A stretch of 64,000 nt of DNA from an uncultured Thermoanaerobaculia bacterium (GTDB lineage Bacteria > Acidobacteriota > Thermoanaerobaculia > Multivoradales > Multivoraceae), in NCBI GenBank assembly GCA_951812325.1, contig OX638294.1:3324859-3388858 (forward strand). Direction: 5' to 3'. Positions 21,710-59,987 of the stretch are shown here, one piece after another. The notes under the pieces were generated by a model, which was given only the letters and a program-made list of their open reading frames with translations, was not told the origin of the DNA and ran no database searches. Each line of letters opens with the position of its first letter. Position 1 is the stretch's first letter. The translations under genes and the position numbers were made by a program.

Positions 21710-21880
21710 ATGCCGTCCCTTGGCATTCAGGAACTACTCGTCATCTTCGTCATCCTCCTGGTCATCTTCGGCGGCAGCAAGCTGCCTCTGCTTGGCCGTG
21801 GCATGGGCGAGGGGATCCGCAACTTCAAGCGGGGCCTGCGCAGCGACGATGCCTCCGAGCTGGAGGAGAAACAGCCCTAG
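21710..21880 (+). CDS. tatA: Sec-independent translocase subunit TatA/E
   Basis: 56 residues. Seen: a short N-terminus (PSLGIQE), one membrane helix LLVIFVILLVIFGGSKLP with the conserved FG.xKLP hinge, then an amphipathic helix GRGMGEGIRNFKRGLR and an acidic tail. This is the full TatA architecture; TatA forms the pore for folded proteins. The SD GAGAGGAG lies about 8 bases before ATG 21710. tatB and tatC are not nearby. Its stop codon starts the inverted-arm element that follows. Confidence 0.93.
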   Translation: MPSLGIQELLVIFVILLVIFGGSKLPLLGRGMGEGIRNFKRGLRSDDASELEEKQP

Positions 21881-22111
21881 CGGCCCGTGGCAGAAGTCGC
21901 GCTGCATTCGAGCGGCGATGCATCACGTCCAACATCGTGCCATCCGTGCGCCCGATGACGGGCGCACGGACTGGTTCGCGGGTGGCGCGGAGCGCGCCAC
22001 CCGGGCAAGCTCTTCGGTCGAGTATTCACCGATATGCTCCCTCATCGCGCCTTGTTGGACGCGCGCCTCGCCGCTCTCGGTGCGACACGGACTTCTGCCA
22101 CGGGCTGCTAG
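21877..22111. repeat. Inverted-arm element enclosing a double hairpin
   Basis: The gap between the tatA stop and the convergent transglycosylase stop is one structured element. Left arm 21877-21933 and right arm 22054-22111 are imperfect inverted repeats; both begin CTAGC(G/A)GCCCGTGGCAGA reading inwards, including the TAG stops, and both end GTCCAAC. Inside are hairpin 1 (21944-21969, 11-bp stem, ATGA loop), linker ACTGGTTCGC (21970-21979) and hairpin 2 (21980-22002, 10-bp stem). The double hairpin recurs at 55329-55388. It could be MITE-like, REP-like or a structured terminator. Confidence 0.75.
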
Positions 22112-54072: not shown

Positions 54073-54312
54073 TCAGGGTGCTTCCAGCAGCAGTCGAGAT
54101 CGGGCGGAGGCTCGATGCGGGTCGAAGAGTCTTCGGTCCCTAAGCATGGCGCAGGCGACGTGGATGAGGCGATCGGAGACCTGTCTGAGGGCTCGTCCGT
54201 AGCGGTGTCCCCTTGGTTTGCACTTGGTCTTGGTGATGGCGTCGCGTTGGGCTGCGACGCCTGCCCAGTGGTGTGCGGCATCGGCGAGGCGCTTTTTCTT
54301 GGAACTCACCGC
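54073..54312 (-). pseudogene. Transposase C-terminal remnant
   Basis: In one minus-strand frame the last 60 residues read KPRGHRYGRALRQVSDRLIH then VACAMLRDRRLFDPHR, matching the C-terminal (G)RALRxVxDRLLxVxxAMLR pattern seen in IS110/IS116-like transposases. No catalytic DEDD region and no ends are visible, and the frame upstream runs into a glycosyltransferase gene. It is an eroded IS tail between two polysaccharide genes. Confidence 0.55.
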
Positions 54313-55283
54313 CCTCTCCAACCCGTGGCCGCCGCCGCCGCCAACCGCCACAGCCCGGCGGCGGCCTCGCCGCGGCGCCCGGCCCGGCGGGGCCGGCGAA
54401 GCGGCAGCAGAGCGATGCGGAGCAGAGCGGCGAGGACCAGCATGACATTCAGCACGAGGGCGGCGCCGCGGCTGTGATGCTTGCGAGCGTATCGGTCCAG
54501 GTTGCGGTAGTAGGCGAGCAGGAAAGGGCCGTAGCCGAGCCGCGGTACGGAGGCGCCGAGGCCGTGCCGGAAGGTGGCGTCCGGCCAGTAGCGGATCGTC
54601 TCGCCCCGGTCGTGGAGCCGGCGGGCGAGGTCGACGTCCTCGAACCAGGCCGGCCAGAACTGTTCGTCCATGCGACCGACGGCTTCGAAGGCGTCGCGTC
54701 GAAGCAGCAGGGCGCAGGCCGCAGGCTGTTCGACGGGCGCCCCGGCCGCCGGCGCCGGCAGCGTGGCGGGCTCGATGAAGCTGCAGTAGCCGAGCAGCGT
54801 GCGCAGGCCGGGCAGTTGGCGCAGTTGCCAACCGGCTTGAGGAGCACCGTCCTCGTCCAGCAGCCGGGGCGCCAGGCCGGCCGTTTCCGGGTGCTGTTCC
54901 ATGCCCCGGACCAGGGACTCGAGGGCCCCGGGTTCGGGTCTGGCGTCCGTGTTGAGAATCAGCAGCAGACGTCCGTCCGCATCGGTCGCTCCGCGGTTGA
55001 CGGCCGCTGCGAAGCCGAGGTTGGCGTCCGGCTCGAGGACGTGGACGTTGGGCCGGCCGCCGCTCAACTCGCCGAGGCGCCCGCTCGAGCCGTTGTCGAC
55101 CACGACGAGTTCGAACCGAACGTCCCGGGGCCAGCTTTTCGCGAGGAGCGTGAGGTTGTCCTCGTCGTGCCAGTGCGGCGCCACCGCGCTCAGGAGCGGA
55201 GTGTCGCTCGTCGCCCGTTTTCGCCGTCGTCCGCACGTCCTGCACGTGGACGGCGAGGCGCTTTGCCCCGAGGTGTCGCTCAT
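54306..55283 (-). CDS. Family 2 glycosyltransferase (rhamnosyltransferase-like)
   Basis: 325 residues from ATG 55283, which overlaps the stop of the upstream GT2 gene as ATGA. GT-A domain: VVVDNGSSGRLGEL, NLGFAAAVNRGATDADGRLL, LILNTDARPEPGALE (DxD-like), and WPAWFEDVDLARRLHDRGE. A C-terminal membrane helix (ALVLNVMLVLAALLRIALLP) anchors it. The N-terminus is duplicated: RRRKRAMSDT and RRRKRATSDT lie 24 residues apart; only the distal copy still has the Met. Confidence 0.9.
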   Translation of the reverse strand: MSDTSGQSASPSTCRTCGRRRKRATSDTPLLSAVAPHWHDEDNLTLLAKSWPRDVRFELVVVDNGSSGRLGELSGGRPNVHVLEPDANLGFAAAVNRGATDADGRLLLILNTDARPEPGALESLVRGMEQHPETAGLAPRLLDEDGAPQAGWQLRQLPGLRTLLGYCSFIEPATLPAPAAGAPVEQPAACALLLRRDAFEAVGRMDEQFWPAWFEDVDLARRLHDRGETIRYWPDATFRHGLGASVPRLGYGPFLLAYYRNLDRYARKHHSRGAALVLNVMLVLAALLRIALLPLRRPRRAGRRGEAAAGLWRLAAAAATGWRGR

Positions 55284-55306
55284 CGCCCGTTTTCGCCGTC
55301 GTCCGC
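55201..55306. repeat. Paired direct repeat, 34 bases, period 72, at a GT2 start
   Basis: Copies 55201-55234 and 55273-55306 match at 33 of 34 bases (GTGTCGCTC.TCGCCCGTTT). The only difference is that the distal copy (55281-55283) spells the ATG start and the proximal copy spells ACG. Confidence 0.93.
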
Positions 55307-56674
55307 GCCGGGTGCGCCGGCGTGCCGTCCGTGCACCCGCTGACGGGTGCACGGACTGGTTCGCGGGTGGCGCGGATTCGCGCCACCCGAGTTCCCGCCG
55401 GCTGCCGCCGCAGGCGGCCAGGGAGACGGGCCGGCCGCGGGATTCCACGGTTCCTGACCGCGACCGAAACCGGCGAAGCGCGGCAGGAGCCGGACCGCGC
55501 GACTCCAGGCGAACAGGAGATCGACCGCTTTCGGGCGTGGAGAATCCCCCGGCAGCGCTTCGGCCGTTTCACCCCTGAACAGATCGACGGCGTCCCGCGA
55601 CAGAAGCCCCGGCAACAGCAGCCAGAAGCTCCGGCCCGACCGCGTCGCCAGAACCAGCAGGCGATTGCAGTAGATGCGGCGAACCCGCCGCCGGGCGGCG
55701 CGGCGGCCGCGGCTGGACAACGCGCCGGCATGTTCAATGCGGGCCGCCGGCGCCAGTACGGACTCGTACGATGCGCGGCGCAGCCGGTCGGCGAGTTCGA
55801 CGTCCTCGTAGTAGCTGTCGAGCCGCTCGTTGAAGGGCCGGAGCGGCGCCCCCGCCGGGCTCACGGCGACGAGCGCCTCGCGGCGGTAGATGGCCGCGGT
55901 GGCGGACACACCGTAGATGGGCGTCGGCGACCCGCCTGCCGGCGGCGCGGGTTTGCCGCGGTCGACCTGGATCGCCTGCCAGCGGCGGTTCCACGCCAGG
56001 CCGGCGCCGTCGATGCGTGCTTCGTCCTTGCCGTCACCGGGCGGAAGCAGGTTGAGTCCCTGCGCCGCCGCGAGCGGGGAGTCGGCGCAGATCCGCGGGT
56101 CGGCGCCGTTGCAAGCGCCGAGGGCCGCCAGCAACGTTCGGGTCCAGCCGGTCGCCAGCACGGCGTCATCGTTCACCAGGGCGATCAGGCGGCCGCGGCT
56201 GACCGCGATGCCGGCGTTGGCCGCGCGGGCGAATCCTGCCGGTTCGGGAAGCTGCGCGATCCGCGGCGACCGCTCGAAGGCGGCGGGATGATTCGACGCG
56301 AACTGCCGCGCGAGTTCCCTGAGCGCTGCCGGACCGTCGGCGGGAGCGGAACGGTTGACCTGGTCGGCGGTTCCGCTGCCGACGAGCTTCCCGCTCTCCC
56401 GCGCCAGGTCGCGAGAGTGCGGCCACCACCATCCCCAGCCGGGTCGCGATCTTCGTCGCCCGTTCCTGACCCGAATCGGCCGCTGCTGGTCAAGACCGGC
56501 TTTCGCGGCCGGCTGCTGCCAGACGACGATCAGTTCGGCCGTCGCGCCGGTTTCCGCCGCGTCCCGGTAAATGGACTCCAGACAGCCCGCGACATGCTCC
56601 GGTACGCCGACCGTTGGAACGACGTAGGAGAGTGCCGGCGCCTGGGCCGACCCGGCGGCGGACCCGTCGGTCAA
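55280..56674 (-). CDS. Family 2 glycosyltransferase
   Basis: 464 residues from TTG 56674, which overlaps the TGA of the preceding membrane-protein gene as TTGA. Seen: ALSYVVPTVGVPEHVAGCLE at the start, ELIVVWQQ, NAGIAVSRGRLIALVNDDAV (DD), ATAAIYRREALVAV and RLDSYYEDVELADRLRR (ED), so a GT2 domain is present but longer than usual with a 50-residue insertion (GPAALRELARQFASNHPAAF). The C-terminal about 40 residues (NPRHPRTSPCTRQRV) are translated from the double-hairpin element, so the end of the protein was probably replaced. Confidence 0.85.
   Translation of the reverse strand: MTDGSAAGSAQAPALSYVVPTVGVPEHVAGCLESIYRDAAETGATAELIVVWQQPAAKAGLDQQRPIRVRNGRRRSRPGWGWWWPHSRDLARESGKLVGSGTADQVNRSAPADGPAALRELARQFASNHPAAFERSPRIAQLPEPAGFARAANAGIAVSRGRLIALVNDDAVLATGWTRTLLAALGACNGADPRICADSPLAAAQGLNLLPPGDGKDEARIDGAGLAWNRRWQAIQVDRGKPAPPAGGSPTPIYGVSATAAIYRREALVAVSPAGAPLRPFNERLDSYYEDVELADRLRRASYESVLAPAARIEHAGALSSRGRRAARRRVRRIYCNRLLVLATRSGRSFWLLLPGLLSRDAVDLFRGETAEALPGDSPRPKAVDLLFAWSRAVRLLPRFAGFGRGQEPWNPAAGPSPWPPAAAAGGNSGGANPRHPRTSPCTRQRVHGRHAGAPGADDGENGR
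55329..55388. repeat. Second copy of the double-hairpin element
   Basis: Hairpin 1 (55329-55354, 11-bp stem, CTGA loop), linker ACTGGTTCGC (55355-55364) and hairpin 2 (55365-55388, 10-bp stem, GATT loop). Stem 1 differs from the 21944 copy by one base on each side (G-C becomes A-T), keeping the pair. It lies inside the 3' end of a GT2 gene. Confidence 0.88.
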
Positions 56675-58488
56675 GGCCCGGCAGACCGGCCGACGTGGAG
56701 GGCGAAAAAGAGGATCACCTCGACCTCGGCGGGGAGGTCCGGGTCGCGGGTGATGACCAGGTCGCCGGTTCCACAGAGGGAAGAGAGATCGAACTCGGCG
56801 CGGTAGCGGGCGCCGAAGAAGGGACCGCCGGCGCCGGTCGCGACCCAGTGCAGCCAGGGCTCGCGGCCCGCCGCGGCGCCGCTTGCGCGCGCCGACCATT
56901 CGCCGGTGTGATCGCCGTGCAGCACCTCGACGCCAGGGGGACTGGCGCCGATGCGGGCCACCGGCTGACCCGCGGCGACCCCGGCGCCGTGGGCGACCGC
57001 CGAATCGAGCACCAGGGTGGCGCAGCCGGCCGCTGCGGCTTCCCATCGTGGCTGGTCCGCCGTCAACACCTGCCTGGCCGAGCCGAGCAGCGTCTGCCGC
57101 GGCTCGAACGCCCCCCAGGAGCCGAGGGCGGCCGCCGTCAGCACGACGACGCCGACCGCCAGGACGATCGCCCGCGGCGTGGGCGCCCTTCGCACCAGCA
57201 CGCAGACGCCGCGTCCGATCAGGATCAGGACGATCAGTCCGAGCCAGCGATCAAAGGCCGTATCGAGTCCCAGAGCGCTCAAACGATCGTCGAGATGCGC
57301 GGACCGCAGCCACGGAAAGGTCGCCGAGAGCGACGCGAACACGAGCAGGCTGCCCTGCCAGCAGAATCCGAACACGGCTGCGTCGCCGTGCAGGCCGATC
57401 CCGTGCCAGGGCCCGGTCGGAGGCGGGTCGTCGGCCGAGGCGGCGTCTGGCCGCCGGGCGCTCAGCACGGTCCACAAGGCGATGCCCGCCAGCAGGGCCT
57501 GCGTGGGCGGCAGAAAGCGCAGCCCGCCGACGGAGAGGAGGACGGCCGCCGCCACGGTGTGCAGCTTGCCCCGACCGACCAGGTTCGGCGCCGCAAGGAG
57601 GACCAGGGGCAATCCGGCGAGCGCCGCGGGCCAGGGCGCCGGCGCGGCGGGCGGCAGCCCGAGGGTCAGGGCGCCGGCCACAACCAGGACGATGGCGAAG
57701 GCGAACCGTCGCCAGACGACGGCGGCCGCCATCGCGGTGAGCAGCACCCCGAACGCGGGCTCGCGCACGAGAACGAGGCCCAGGATCAACGCCAGGCCGA
57801 ACCCCAGTGTCGCCGCCGCGCGCGACCAGCGCTCCTCGAGCGCCTGAGCGGCGGCGTCGGCGAGGGCCGCTGTGGCCAGCACCAGGACGACATTCGAGCG
57901 CACGCCGCCCCCGACCAGGATCAGGGCCGCGGCGCCCGCGAGGGCCGGAGCGCCCAACCGCGCGAACAGGGCGGTCAGGACGACCGCCGCCGCGGCGGGG
58001 ATGGCGACGAGTACGACCAGCAGCCGGAGCGCTGAACCGTCGAGCAGCTCGCCCTGCCGCAGGAGCAGGTTGAGTCCGATCAGGGCGGACGCCAGGACGG
58101 CGCCGAGGTGCAGGAGGCGGCCAGGGGCCAGCGAACCGGGCGGCGCCAGCAACTCGGCCCGGCGAGCGACCAGGCTGTCGACGAGAAGCGCGGCGGGACC
58201 CAGACAGAGCAGGGCCCCCACCGCCGTCGCGCGGGCCGGACCGTGGGGCGGCACGGCCGCGAACGCGACGACGGTCAGCACCGGCAGAGCCAGCGCTGCC
58301 GGACTCAGCGGGCGACGCGCGACACCGGCCGCGGCGATCAGGACGGTGGTCGCCGCCAGCGCCAGAAAACGCCCCTCGGCCGCCGCCTCCGGGTTGCGCT
58401 CGACCCCGGCCAACCCGAACATCGCCAGGCCCGCAAGCAACGGCGGCAGGGCAGCCACGAAGGGCGGCGGCGAACCAGCGGCGGTCAT
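56671..58488 (-). CDS. Large polytopic membrane protein of the polysaccharide cluster
   Basis: 605 residues with about twelve hydrophobic helices (for example [64 protein letters not shown]), followed by a soluble C-terminal domain of about 130 residues with [20 protein letters not shown] and [14 protein letters not shown], rich in Gly and strands. I do not find the Wzy/WaaL signature firmly, but an O-antigen polymerase- or ligase-like role fits its place. Stop overlaps the next GT2 start. Confidence 0.7.
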
Positions 58489-58655
58489 CGCCTCTCAGCC
58501 TACCGCCATGCTCCTTCCGCACGTCCCGGCGCCGGGACTCCGGCCTGCGCCCGCCGGCATCCTGCGCGATAGCGCCGGCTTCCGGACGCAACGCTATGAT
58601 CCGTCGCCGCGTCCTCGGCACGAACTGCCGCCGAAGGCTGGAAGATTGCCACGCC

Positions 58656-59987
58656 ATGTTGCCGCGAGAACTCCTGAGAAGCGAACCGGAGCGGGTCGCT
58701 GCCGCCGTTGAGGCGCGCGGCGTGGATCCCGCTCTCGTCGAGCAGTGGGGCAGTTGGGATCTCCGGCGTCGGGAGTCGCTCACCGCACTCGAGGAACTCC
58801 GCCACCGCCGTCGGGTGGCGGGCCGCGAGATCGGCTTGCTCAAGGCCCAGGGCGAGGCGAAGGAAGAGGAAGCGGCCGAGCGGATTCGCGAGATGACCGC
58901 GCTCAAGGCTCGCGTGGAGCAGCTTGAAGAGGTCGTGGAGCAGGCCGAGCGGGAGCTGGTGGACGCCGAACTTCGCGTGCCCAACATCGCCCACGAGAGC
59001 GTGCCGCCCGGCAACGACGAATCGGCGAATCGCGTCGAGCGGGTGGTCGGCGAACCGCCGGAGTTCGACTTCGACGCGAAGGCGCACTGGGACCTCGGCC
59101 CGGAGCTGGGAATCCTCGACTTCGAGCGCGGCGCCAGGCTGGCCGGCGCCCGGTTCACGACCTACTTCGGCTGGGGGGCTCGCCTGGAGCGGGCGCTCGG
59201 CGCCTTCATGCTCGACCTGCACACCGAGGAGCATGGCTACACCGAGGTGCTGCCTCCCTACCTGGTCAAGCGCGAATGCCTGTTCGGCAGCGGCCAGTTG
59301 CCGAAGTTCGAGGAGGACCTGTTCCACGTCCAGCCCGATTCGCGGTACCTGATCCCGACCGGCGAGGTGCCCCTGGTCAACCTGCATGCGGGCGAAGTGC
59401 TTGACGAGGACCAGTTGCCCCTGCGCTACGCGGCGCTGACGCCCTGCTTCCGCGCCGAGGCCGGGTCGTACGGTCGCGACGTGCGCGGACTCATCCGCCA
59501 GCACCAGTTCCACAAGGTCGAACTCGTCCAGGTGACCGTGCCCGAAGCGAGTTTCGAAGCGCTGGAGCAGCTCACGCGTCACGCGGAACGCGTGCTGCAG
59601 CGGCTGGAACTGCCCTACCGTGTGGTGTCTCTGTGCACCGGCGACCTGGGATTCGCCATGGCGAAGACCTACGACCTCGAAGTGTGGCTTCCCGGCCAGC
59701 AGGCCTACCGGGAGATCTCCTCCTGCAGCAACGCGGAGGCCTTCCAGGCGCGGCGCGTCCGTACCCGCTTCCGCCCCGGGGAAGGCGGCTCGTTGCGCCA
59801 TGTCCACACCCTGAACGGCTCCGGCCTGGCGGTCGGACGGACGCTGATCGCGCTGCTGGAGAACTACCAGACGGCGTCAGGTTCGATCCGCATTCCGGCG
59901 GCGCTCCAGCCCTACGTGGGCGGAGCAGAGGAGATCCCGAGCGGCCAGGGCCAGGCTGGCGCTAGCGAAGCAGTTCGCCCGGCCTGA
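58656..59987 (+). CDS. serS: Seryl-tRNA synthetase
   Basis: 443 residues, normal length. The N-terminal 100 residues form the tRNA-binding coiled coil ([20 protein letters not shown] to [18 protein letters not shown]). Class II motifs follow: [20 protein letters not shown]-like ([20 protein letters not shown]), [49 protein letters not shown], and the C-terminal [18 protein letters not shown] (motif 3). ATG 58656 begins just before [11 protein letters not shown], the family start. Divergent from the membrane-protein gene. Confidence 0.97.

Follow-up and report, generated by a model that had tools for sequence, protein, structure and literature searches.

A double-hairpin module shared by several carrier elements in a genus of Acidobacteriota, probably an exchangeable block of BOX-like miniature elements

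Introduction

Near one end of the window, by which we mean the whole 64,000-nucleotide stretch of DNA that was analyzed, two short hairpins lie side by side at the end of a glycosyltransferase gene. The original prediction recognized in them (55329-55388) a module that also occurs at 21944-22002, which raises the question of what kind of element this module is, how it came to lie at the end of a gene, and what keeps its folded structure intact. A limited literature search found no earlier description of it.

Results

Structure of the module

Both copies are indeed present and have their stems and linker in common. The module is about 66-76 bp long (~70 bases) and forms two hairpins when folded, which are laid out in the window as follows.

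21939-22002, plus strand: module, copy 1; stem 1 is 21943-21954 with 21959-21970, and stem 2 is 21980-21989 with 21993-22002
55324-55360, plus strand: hairpin 1 of copy 2; 12-bp stem 55328-55339/55344-55355 with the loop CTGA at 55340-55343
55355-55364, plus strand: linker ACTGGTTCGC of copy 2, partly paired with 55324-55328
55365-55388, plus strand: hairpin 2 of copy 2; 10-bp stem GGGTGGCGCG/CGCGCCACCC (55365-55374 with 55379-55388) with the loop GATT

The linker had been described as an invariant spacer between two stems. It is the same letter for letter in copy 1 (21970-21979), but stem 1 is longer than was proposed. In copy 2 its core (55329-55339 with 55344-55354) is extended by the pair T55328-A55355 and then, beyond a bulged C at 55356, by four further pairs (55324-55327/55357-55360), so that half of the supposed linker is paired; the ACTGG portion is mostly in the helix, and what remains unpaired is TTCRC or less. 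The replacement of a G-C by an A-T pair in stem 1, with both sides changed, is real and lies at 55335/55348. Folding energies of the window copies were -57.6 and -56.8 kcal/mol (z -7.5 and -6.5), and none of the shuffled sequences was equally stable. Rfam covariance models matched tRNAs only in the window, with no RNA family above its gathering score for the module.

Copy number and host range

When two mismatches are allowed, the 4.63-Mb genome contains the 18-mer ACGGACTGGTTCGCGGGT 99 times, compared to 0 for a reversed control. A covariance model built from 21 copies found at least 141 copies in the genome at E<=0.1 among the best 150 candidates scored, and its strong matches in the window were the two copies described above only. 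With about 140 copies and covarying stems, the module is neither confined to two places nor a repeat whose many copies fail to preserve stems and linker. Every one of the 21 genomes sampled from the genus had it, with 7-145 matches per genome, and it was found in none of 51 other genomes of the order, which were searched with stricter filters than those applied within the genus. A scan of 84,980 species with a linker 20-mer matched Acidobacteriota MAGs only, such as Thermoanaerobaculia bacteria and Candidatus Multivorans thiocomprendens. The module is genus-wide and, among the genomes searched, genus-only; its host genus belongs to the Thermoanaerobaculia / Ca. Multivorans group of the Acidobacteriota.

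Covariation and conservation

Across 117 distinct copies, 22 of 26 base pairs had at least one two-sided change, compared to 9.7 in shuffles, and compensatory cells numbered 100, compared to 19.6 in shuffled alignments (a value reached by none of 500 shuffles) and 28-41 for slid pairings; the alignment comes from the covariance model, and being fitted to the structure it favors the structure. Covariation is also plain in single copies, including CCGAGCGCCCG/CGGGCGCTCGG (4557512), CCCTGCACCCG/CGGGTGCAGGG (4210036) and CGAACGCTCG/CGAGCGTTCG (1681622). The seeds of the first model shared the exact 18-mer, and linker conservation was therefore assessed on model matches alone: two linker C residues were conserved at 0.98-0.99 and the loop GA at 0.94-0.95, while the stems averaged 0.91.

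From the conserved linker and the changed pair, the original prediction had argued for selection on structure. The conserved linker and loop and the compensatory changes hold across the 117 copies, and selection on structure is plausible, but other readings of the same data are possible, as discussed below. We also considered whether an excess of G.U pairs would reveal strand-specific selection on an RNA, and rejected it: one-sided mismatches comprised 60 G.T and 51 A.C (the outer four pairs of helix 1 excluded), a near-symmetry that provides no pointer to a strand-specific RNA as the selected form. This test is less telling for source copies, since most resident copies may be decaying.

Insertion between two glycosyltransferase genes

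Comparison of orthologous sites indicated that copy 2 is part of an insertion of ~110-120 bp where two GT2-like genes of the minus strand meet.

55307-55424, plus strand: insertion, with approximate limits set by comparison with the empty orthologous sites of G008, G015, G006 and G016
55280-57046, minus strand: GT2-like gene (588 aa) with a lengthened tail, 66 residues from RFAGF to the end
54306-55448, minus strand: downstream GT2 gene of the same operon; its start codon region adjoins the insertion, and its exact start is uncertain
55201-55306, plus strand: 72-bp tandem duplication, in which the 34-bp stretch 55201-55234 is repeated at 55273-55306

The site is empty in the four genomes listed and filled in G009 and G019. 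The module had been thought to lie inside the end of a GT2 gene and to have replaced the C-terminus of the protein; it does lie at a GT2 gene end, but the gene is on the minus strand and its tail was lengthened in frame. The distance from RFAGF to the end is 28-32 residues in the empty genomes G015, G006 and G008 and 66 residues in the filled genomes G009 and G019, which have the same form as the protein encoded here, and filled proteins end in ADDGE.., empty ones in DDG... These comparisons indicate that the insertion is an in-frame extension of the GT2-like tail that leaves the conserved part untouched, which is possible because the module, read on its antisense strand, is free of stop codons in all frames. 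The 72-bp duplication, which adjoins the insertion where the downstream GT2 gene starts, occurs in this genome and G019 and is absent in G009.

The commonest carrier

We considered whether copy 2 had inserted into a pre-existing GCCGGC hairpin. This was rejected, as the empty sites have no such hairpin and the outer stem arrived with the insert.

55316-55402, plus strand: type-2 unit of copy 2, whose outer stem (55316-55322/55396-55402, GCCGGCG/CGCCGGC) bears the double hairpin on its tip
55404-55418, plus strand: variable third hairpin, GCCGCC-GCA-GGCGGC
58530-58587, plus strand: remnant of the carrier without the module, GCCGGCATCCTGCGCGATAGCGCCGGCTTCCGGAC, intergenic between genes 56671-58458 and 58596-59987

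This second carrier is the commonest type, and if single-stranded its unit at copy 2 would form a three-way junction. Its consensus outside the module is ACCGGGTGCGCCGGCCTG ... GGGTTCTGGCCGGCATCCGGCG, fading further out, and its arms GCCGGC(C/G) and (G/C)GCCGGC tend, as judged by eye, to covary (C-type GGCC..GGCC and G-type GGCG..CGCC). At the place of the third hairpin many type-2 copies have one such as CCGGCGCGAAGCGCCGG, and further inverted ends, CGCGGCAGA..., are recognizable at fixed distances in about 10-15 type-2 copies only. The outer hairpin also occurs without the module, following a common longer upstream repeat, in the forms GCGCCGGCG-TCC-CCGCCGGC, GCCGGCCGTCTGGCCGGC and GCGCCGGCGTCCCCGCCGGC. 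An intergenic repeat of ~150 bp, GCAAGCCGTTTCCCGCCGGACCTTGGAAAACCGGCAGACCGG...GGTACAGGTGCGCCGG, was seen at 2734771, 1504184 and other positions of this genome (L248-L267); its 3' end has 42 genome matches, with the double hairpin next in about half of them.

An IS1182-type MITE as carrier

Copy 1 lies in a different carrier, to which we refer as carrier 1.

21877-22111, plus strand: MITE of ~230 bp with the module inside; TIRs AGCRGCCCGTGGCAGAAGTC at 21880-21898 and 22090-22108, in a CTAG context

The MITE ends AGCRGCCCGTGGCAGAAGTC had 154 genome matches with up to three mismatches, compared to 12 for a control. Complete MITEs that contain the module are mostly 228-251 bp long and those lacking it 160-162 bp, and the module interrupts them at one internal point, between GGCATCGT and TGCTCC; among the MITE loci that were fetched, 27 held the module and 5 were empty. 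The MITE end GCAGCCCGTGGCAGAAGTC, or a sequence one mismatch off, adjoins IS1182-like transposase genes at 1736145, 2161121 and 3636193, which belong to an IS with three near-identical intact copies in this genome. The best match of the transposase is NCBIfam IS1182, at 175 bits (below the family cut-off of 270), and it also matches Pfam DUF772 and DDE_Tnp_1. IS1182-like copies were found in 5 of the 21 genomes (this one and, as relatives of the protein, four others). Since none of the 21 lacks the module, a different enzyme must have been at work elsewhere or at an earlier time. The trinucleotide CTA precedes the left end in 11 and the right end in 10 of 21 complete MITEs, among which no constant target-site duplication was seen. 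In the window, a TatA-like gene and a gene for a lytic transglycosylase converge on the MITE; the stop codons predicted for both lie in its CTAG ends, and further MITE copies likewise lie directly at gene ends.

A third carrier and variation in module number

Copies at 4210036 and 4557512 at first seemed to be naked modules, a reading that was abandoned when comparison with relatives placed both in a third carrier, the CTAGGAGCTTGCGCC element, which starts with CTAGGAGCTTGCGCCGYAGAACGC. The site orthologous to 4210036 has this carrier without the module in G018 and others; at the site orthologous to 4557512 the empty carrier is present in G013, G014 and G020, and neither carrier nor module in G009. 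The copy at 1842036 seems to be carrier-free, a single case with diverged flanks. The module is held by at least three carriers, each of which also occurs empty. By eye, the ends of the three carriers are similar (TAGCAGCCCGT-GGCAGAAGTC, TAGCAGTCCGCGCGGCAGAGACC and TAGGAGCTTGCGCCGCAGAACGC), and from this resemblance carriers 2 and 3, with the ends TAGCAGTCCGCGCGGCAGAGACC and CTAGGAGCTTGCGCCGCAGAACGC, may also be linked to an IS1182-like transposase.

Carriers hold 0-4 modules, with tandem arrays of 2-3 at a spacing of 66-70 bp. One array has three modules in this genome (G000) and one in the near-identical G019, and another has three here and four in G019. Empty orthologous sites were found for the copies at 3617010 and 3617962. 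Gain and loss of the module are not always distinguishable. At one intergenic site (3088390 in this genome, L043 in another species) module-bearing elements lie in opposite orientation in the two species, suggesting independent insertions at a common hot spot.

Genomic context and orientation

A simple codon-usage gene caller, which placed 54 genes in the window (86% coding), was used to describe the surroundings of the module. Of 100 stand-alone copies 83 were intergenic, compared to about 13% of positions drawn at random in the window. Where the neighboring genes were co-directional, the module lay in sense versus antisense orientation 40:12 in this genome and 22:8 in other genomes (62:20 pooled, P 4e-6), and with nine antisense copies inside gene ends added the ratio was 62:29 (P 7e-4). 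All nine copies inside the 3' ends of genes were antisense, i.e., on the strand without stop codons. Modules borne by MITEs had no orientation bias (12:10), with a difference from stand-alone copies of P 0.07. The module was also co-oriented with the leading strand, as inferred from GC skew, in a ratio of 51:26; orientation correlates with replication and with transcription alike.

Discussion

We think it probable that the module is an exchangeable, "boxB-like" internal block of composite, BOX-like miniature transposable elements that have spread within one sponge-associated genus. The IS1182-like DDE transposase whose genes adjoin matching ends would mobilize carrier 1 in trans, and related enzymes would do the same for carriers 2 and 3, while tandem units could recombine or slip against each other and so change the number of modules. 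The folded module, as hairpin or cruciform DNA in a single-stranded or supercoiled state, may aid the spread of source copies, an advantage that would preserve stems, loop and linker as a set, with the majority of resident copies decaying unhindered in intergenic DNA. Where it is transcribed, the module would form two very stable hairpins that may serve as a 3' RNA barrier, a by-product in the BOX-like reading.

The fact that one module is common to three carriers is also what would be expected if it were independently mobile, a single-stranded DNA moved by a Y1/HUH enzyme in the manner of REP/REPIN sequences and landing in MITEs among other places. HUH enzymes recognize a hairpin of this kind, with its loop and linker conserved, and the bias toward the leading strand fits as well. 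The original prediction had named association with a RAYT/TnpA-REP transposase as a point to check. RAYT genes occur in 12 of the 21 genomes of the genus, mostly as a single copy, and in one of six inspected loci (in G009) a module core lies about 300 bp away. This RAYT scored 79.5 bits against the NCBIfam REP-associated tyrosine transposase model, for which the cut-off is 80. Association with a RAYT was not supported. No Y1 transposase (PF01797) was matched at E<=1 in this genome, where a positive control matched in 10 of 14 genomes, nor was one found in G019, and these two genomes without RAYT are the richest in module copies. Mean core number was 27 in genomes with RAYT and 54 in those without, five of the six loci had no core, and two, in G015 and G009, were surrounded by a different palindromic repeat, GCGGACCAGAAGGTCCGCGCACCCAGAGAACG, which is scarce elsewhere in the fetched DNA. 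Neither stem has a GTAG or CGTC tag beside it, the consensus flanks being TGCCA, TTCRC and GGGTT (tag definition from PMC3733652). We rejected the module as the REP of a RAYT on these grounds, and consider mobility through a Y1/HUH enzyme quite unlikely. The RAYT loci of the genus, which include L243:728-1357 and L244, comprise at least two with this repeat of their own, distinct from the module. A related proposal, that the 70-bp double hairpin is the minimal mobile unit, its loop and linker read by an enzyme new to such repeats and its insertions made at hairpin tips and in MITEs, also strikes us as improbable; if it were true, MITE families would have acquired the module as a common passenger.

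Two further explanations address the fold itself. A functional RNA in 3' UTRs or between operon genes, with hairpins that block 3'-5' decay, act as attenuators of transcription or serve as a protein-binding site, would account for the very stable folding, the covariation, and the intergenic, mostly sense position of the copies. The near-equal counts of G.T and A.C mismatches are unlike strand-specific selection on RNA, however, and MITE-borne modules are without orientation bias, although their difference from stand-alone copies reaches P 0.07 only. Part of the sense bias may come from stop codons on the sense strand, which would keep copies at gene ends antisense, and the presence of the module varies between species, so that a role as RNA seems to us somewhat doubtful. 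Covariation could also arise by mutation alone, through quasi-palindrome correction in which template switching during replication copies one arm onto the other. Neighboring pairs do change as a run, as in GGGTGCTCG/..GCACCC of the MITEs at 709257, 4450181 and 4146835, and the missing G.T excess fits correction at the level of DNA. Correction of arms cannot explain why the loop GA and several linker positions are conserved like the stems, and we regard mutation alone as an unlikely source of the pattern. These assessments overlap, as the alternatives bear equally on the nature of the element and on what maintains its structure.

If the module is a block of BOX-like composites, the modular design of BOX-type repeats would not be peculiar to streptococci, being found also in a distant, G+C-rich phylum. 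How a module is acquired and multiplied and how its fold is kept up can be tested in this system, which offers empty sites, carriers in both filled and unfilled form, and an intact IS whose ends match. The in-frame insertion into a glycosyltransferase tail illustrates in detail how a repeat can contribute protein sequence.

In its design the module appears to work like the BOX elements of Streptococcus pneumoniae and S. suis, the closest known kind. These have the structure boxA-(boxB)n-boxC, with about 120 copies per pneumococcal genome; in S. suis one boxB occurs in two different carriers, and the ends of BOX have been proposed to match ISSpn2 (PMC3049150). Both systems are composite and mostly intergenic, with many copies, a self-folding internal module in variable tandem number, and a distribution limited to close relatives (PMC3049150). 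The likeness meant is one of design, and none of sequence is expected; the module described here is a G+C-rich double hairpin in an Acidobacterium with at least three carriers. MITEs mobilized by IS elements, such as RUP/IS630-Spn1, Nezha and Correia/NEMIS, are likewise short and non-autonomous, with TIRs like those of a resident IS (PMC3049150, PMC2229807), and some Correia elements contain a 50-bp internal sequence that others lack (PMC2229807). Here the ends are of IS1182 type in a CTAG context, and the additional piece is a covarying double hairpin that is common to other carriers. REP/REPIN and CGTC REP sequences are also dispersed, mostly intergenic palindromes, and CGTC REPs occur without a dedicated transposase as well (PMC3116915, PMC3733652), but the two hairpins of the module are dissimilar and form no inverted REP pair, with no GTAG or CGTC tag and no adjacent RAYT. 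ERIC, the 127-bp enterobacterial intergenic palindrome, resembles the module in lying within operons and in giving transcripts with orientation effects (PMC2229807); it is ranked among the simple, single-unit repeats (PMC3049150).
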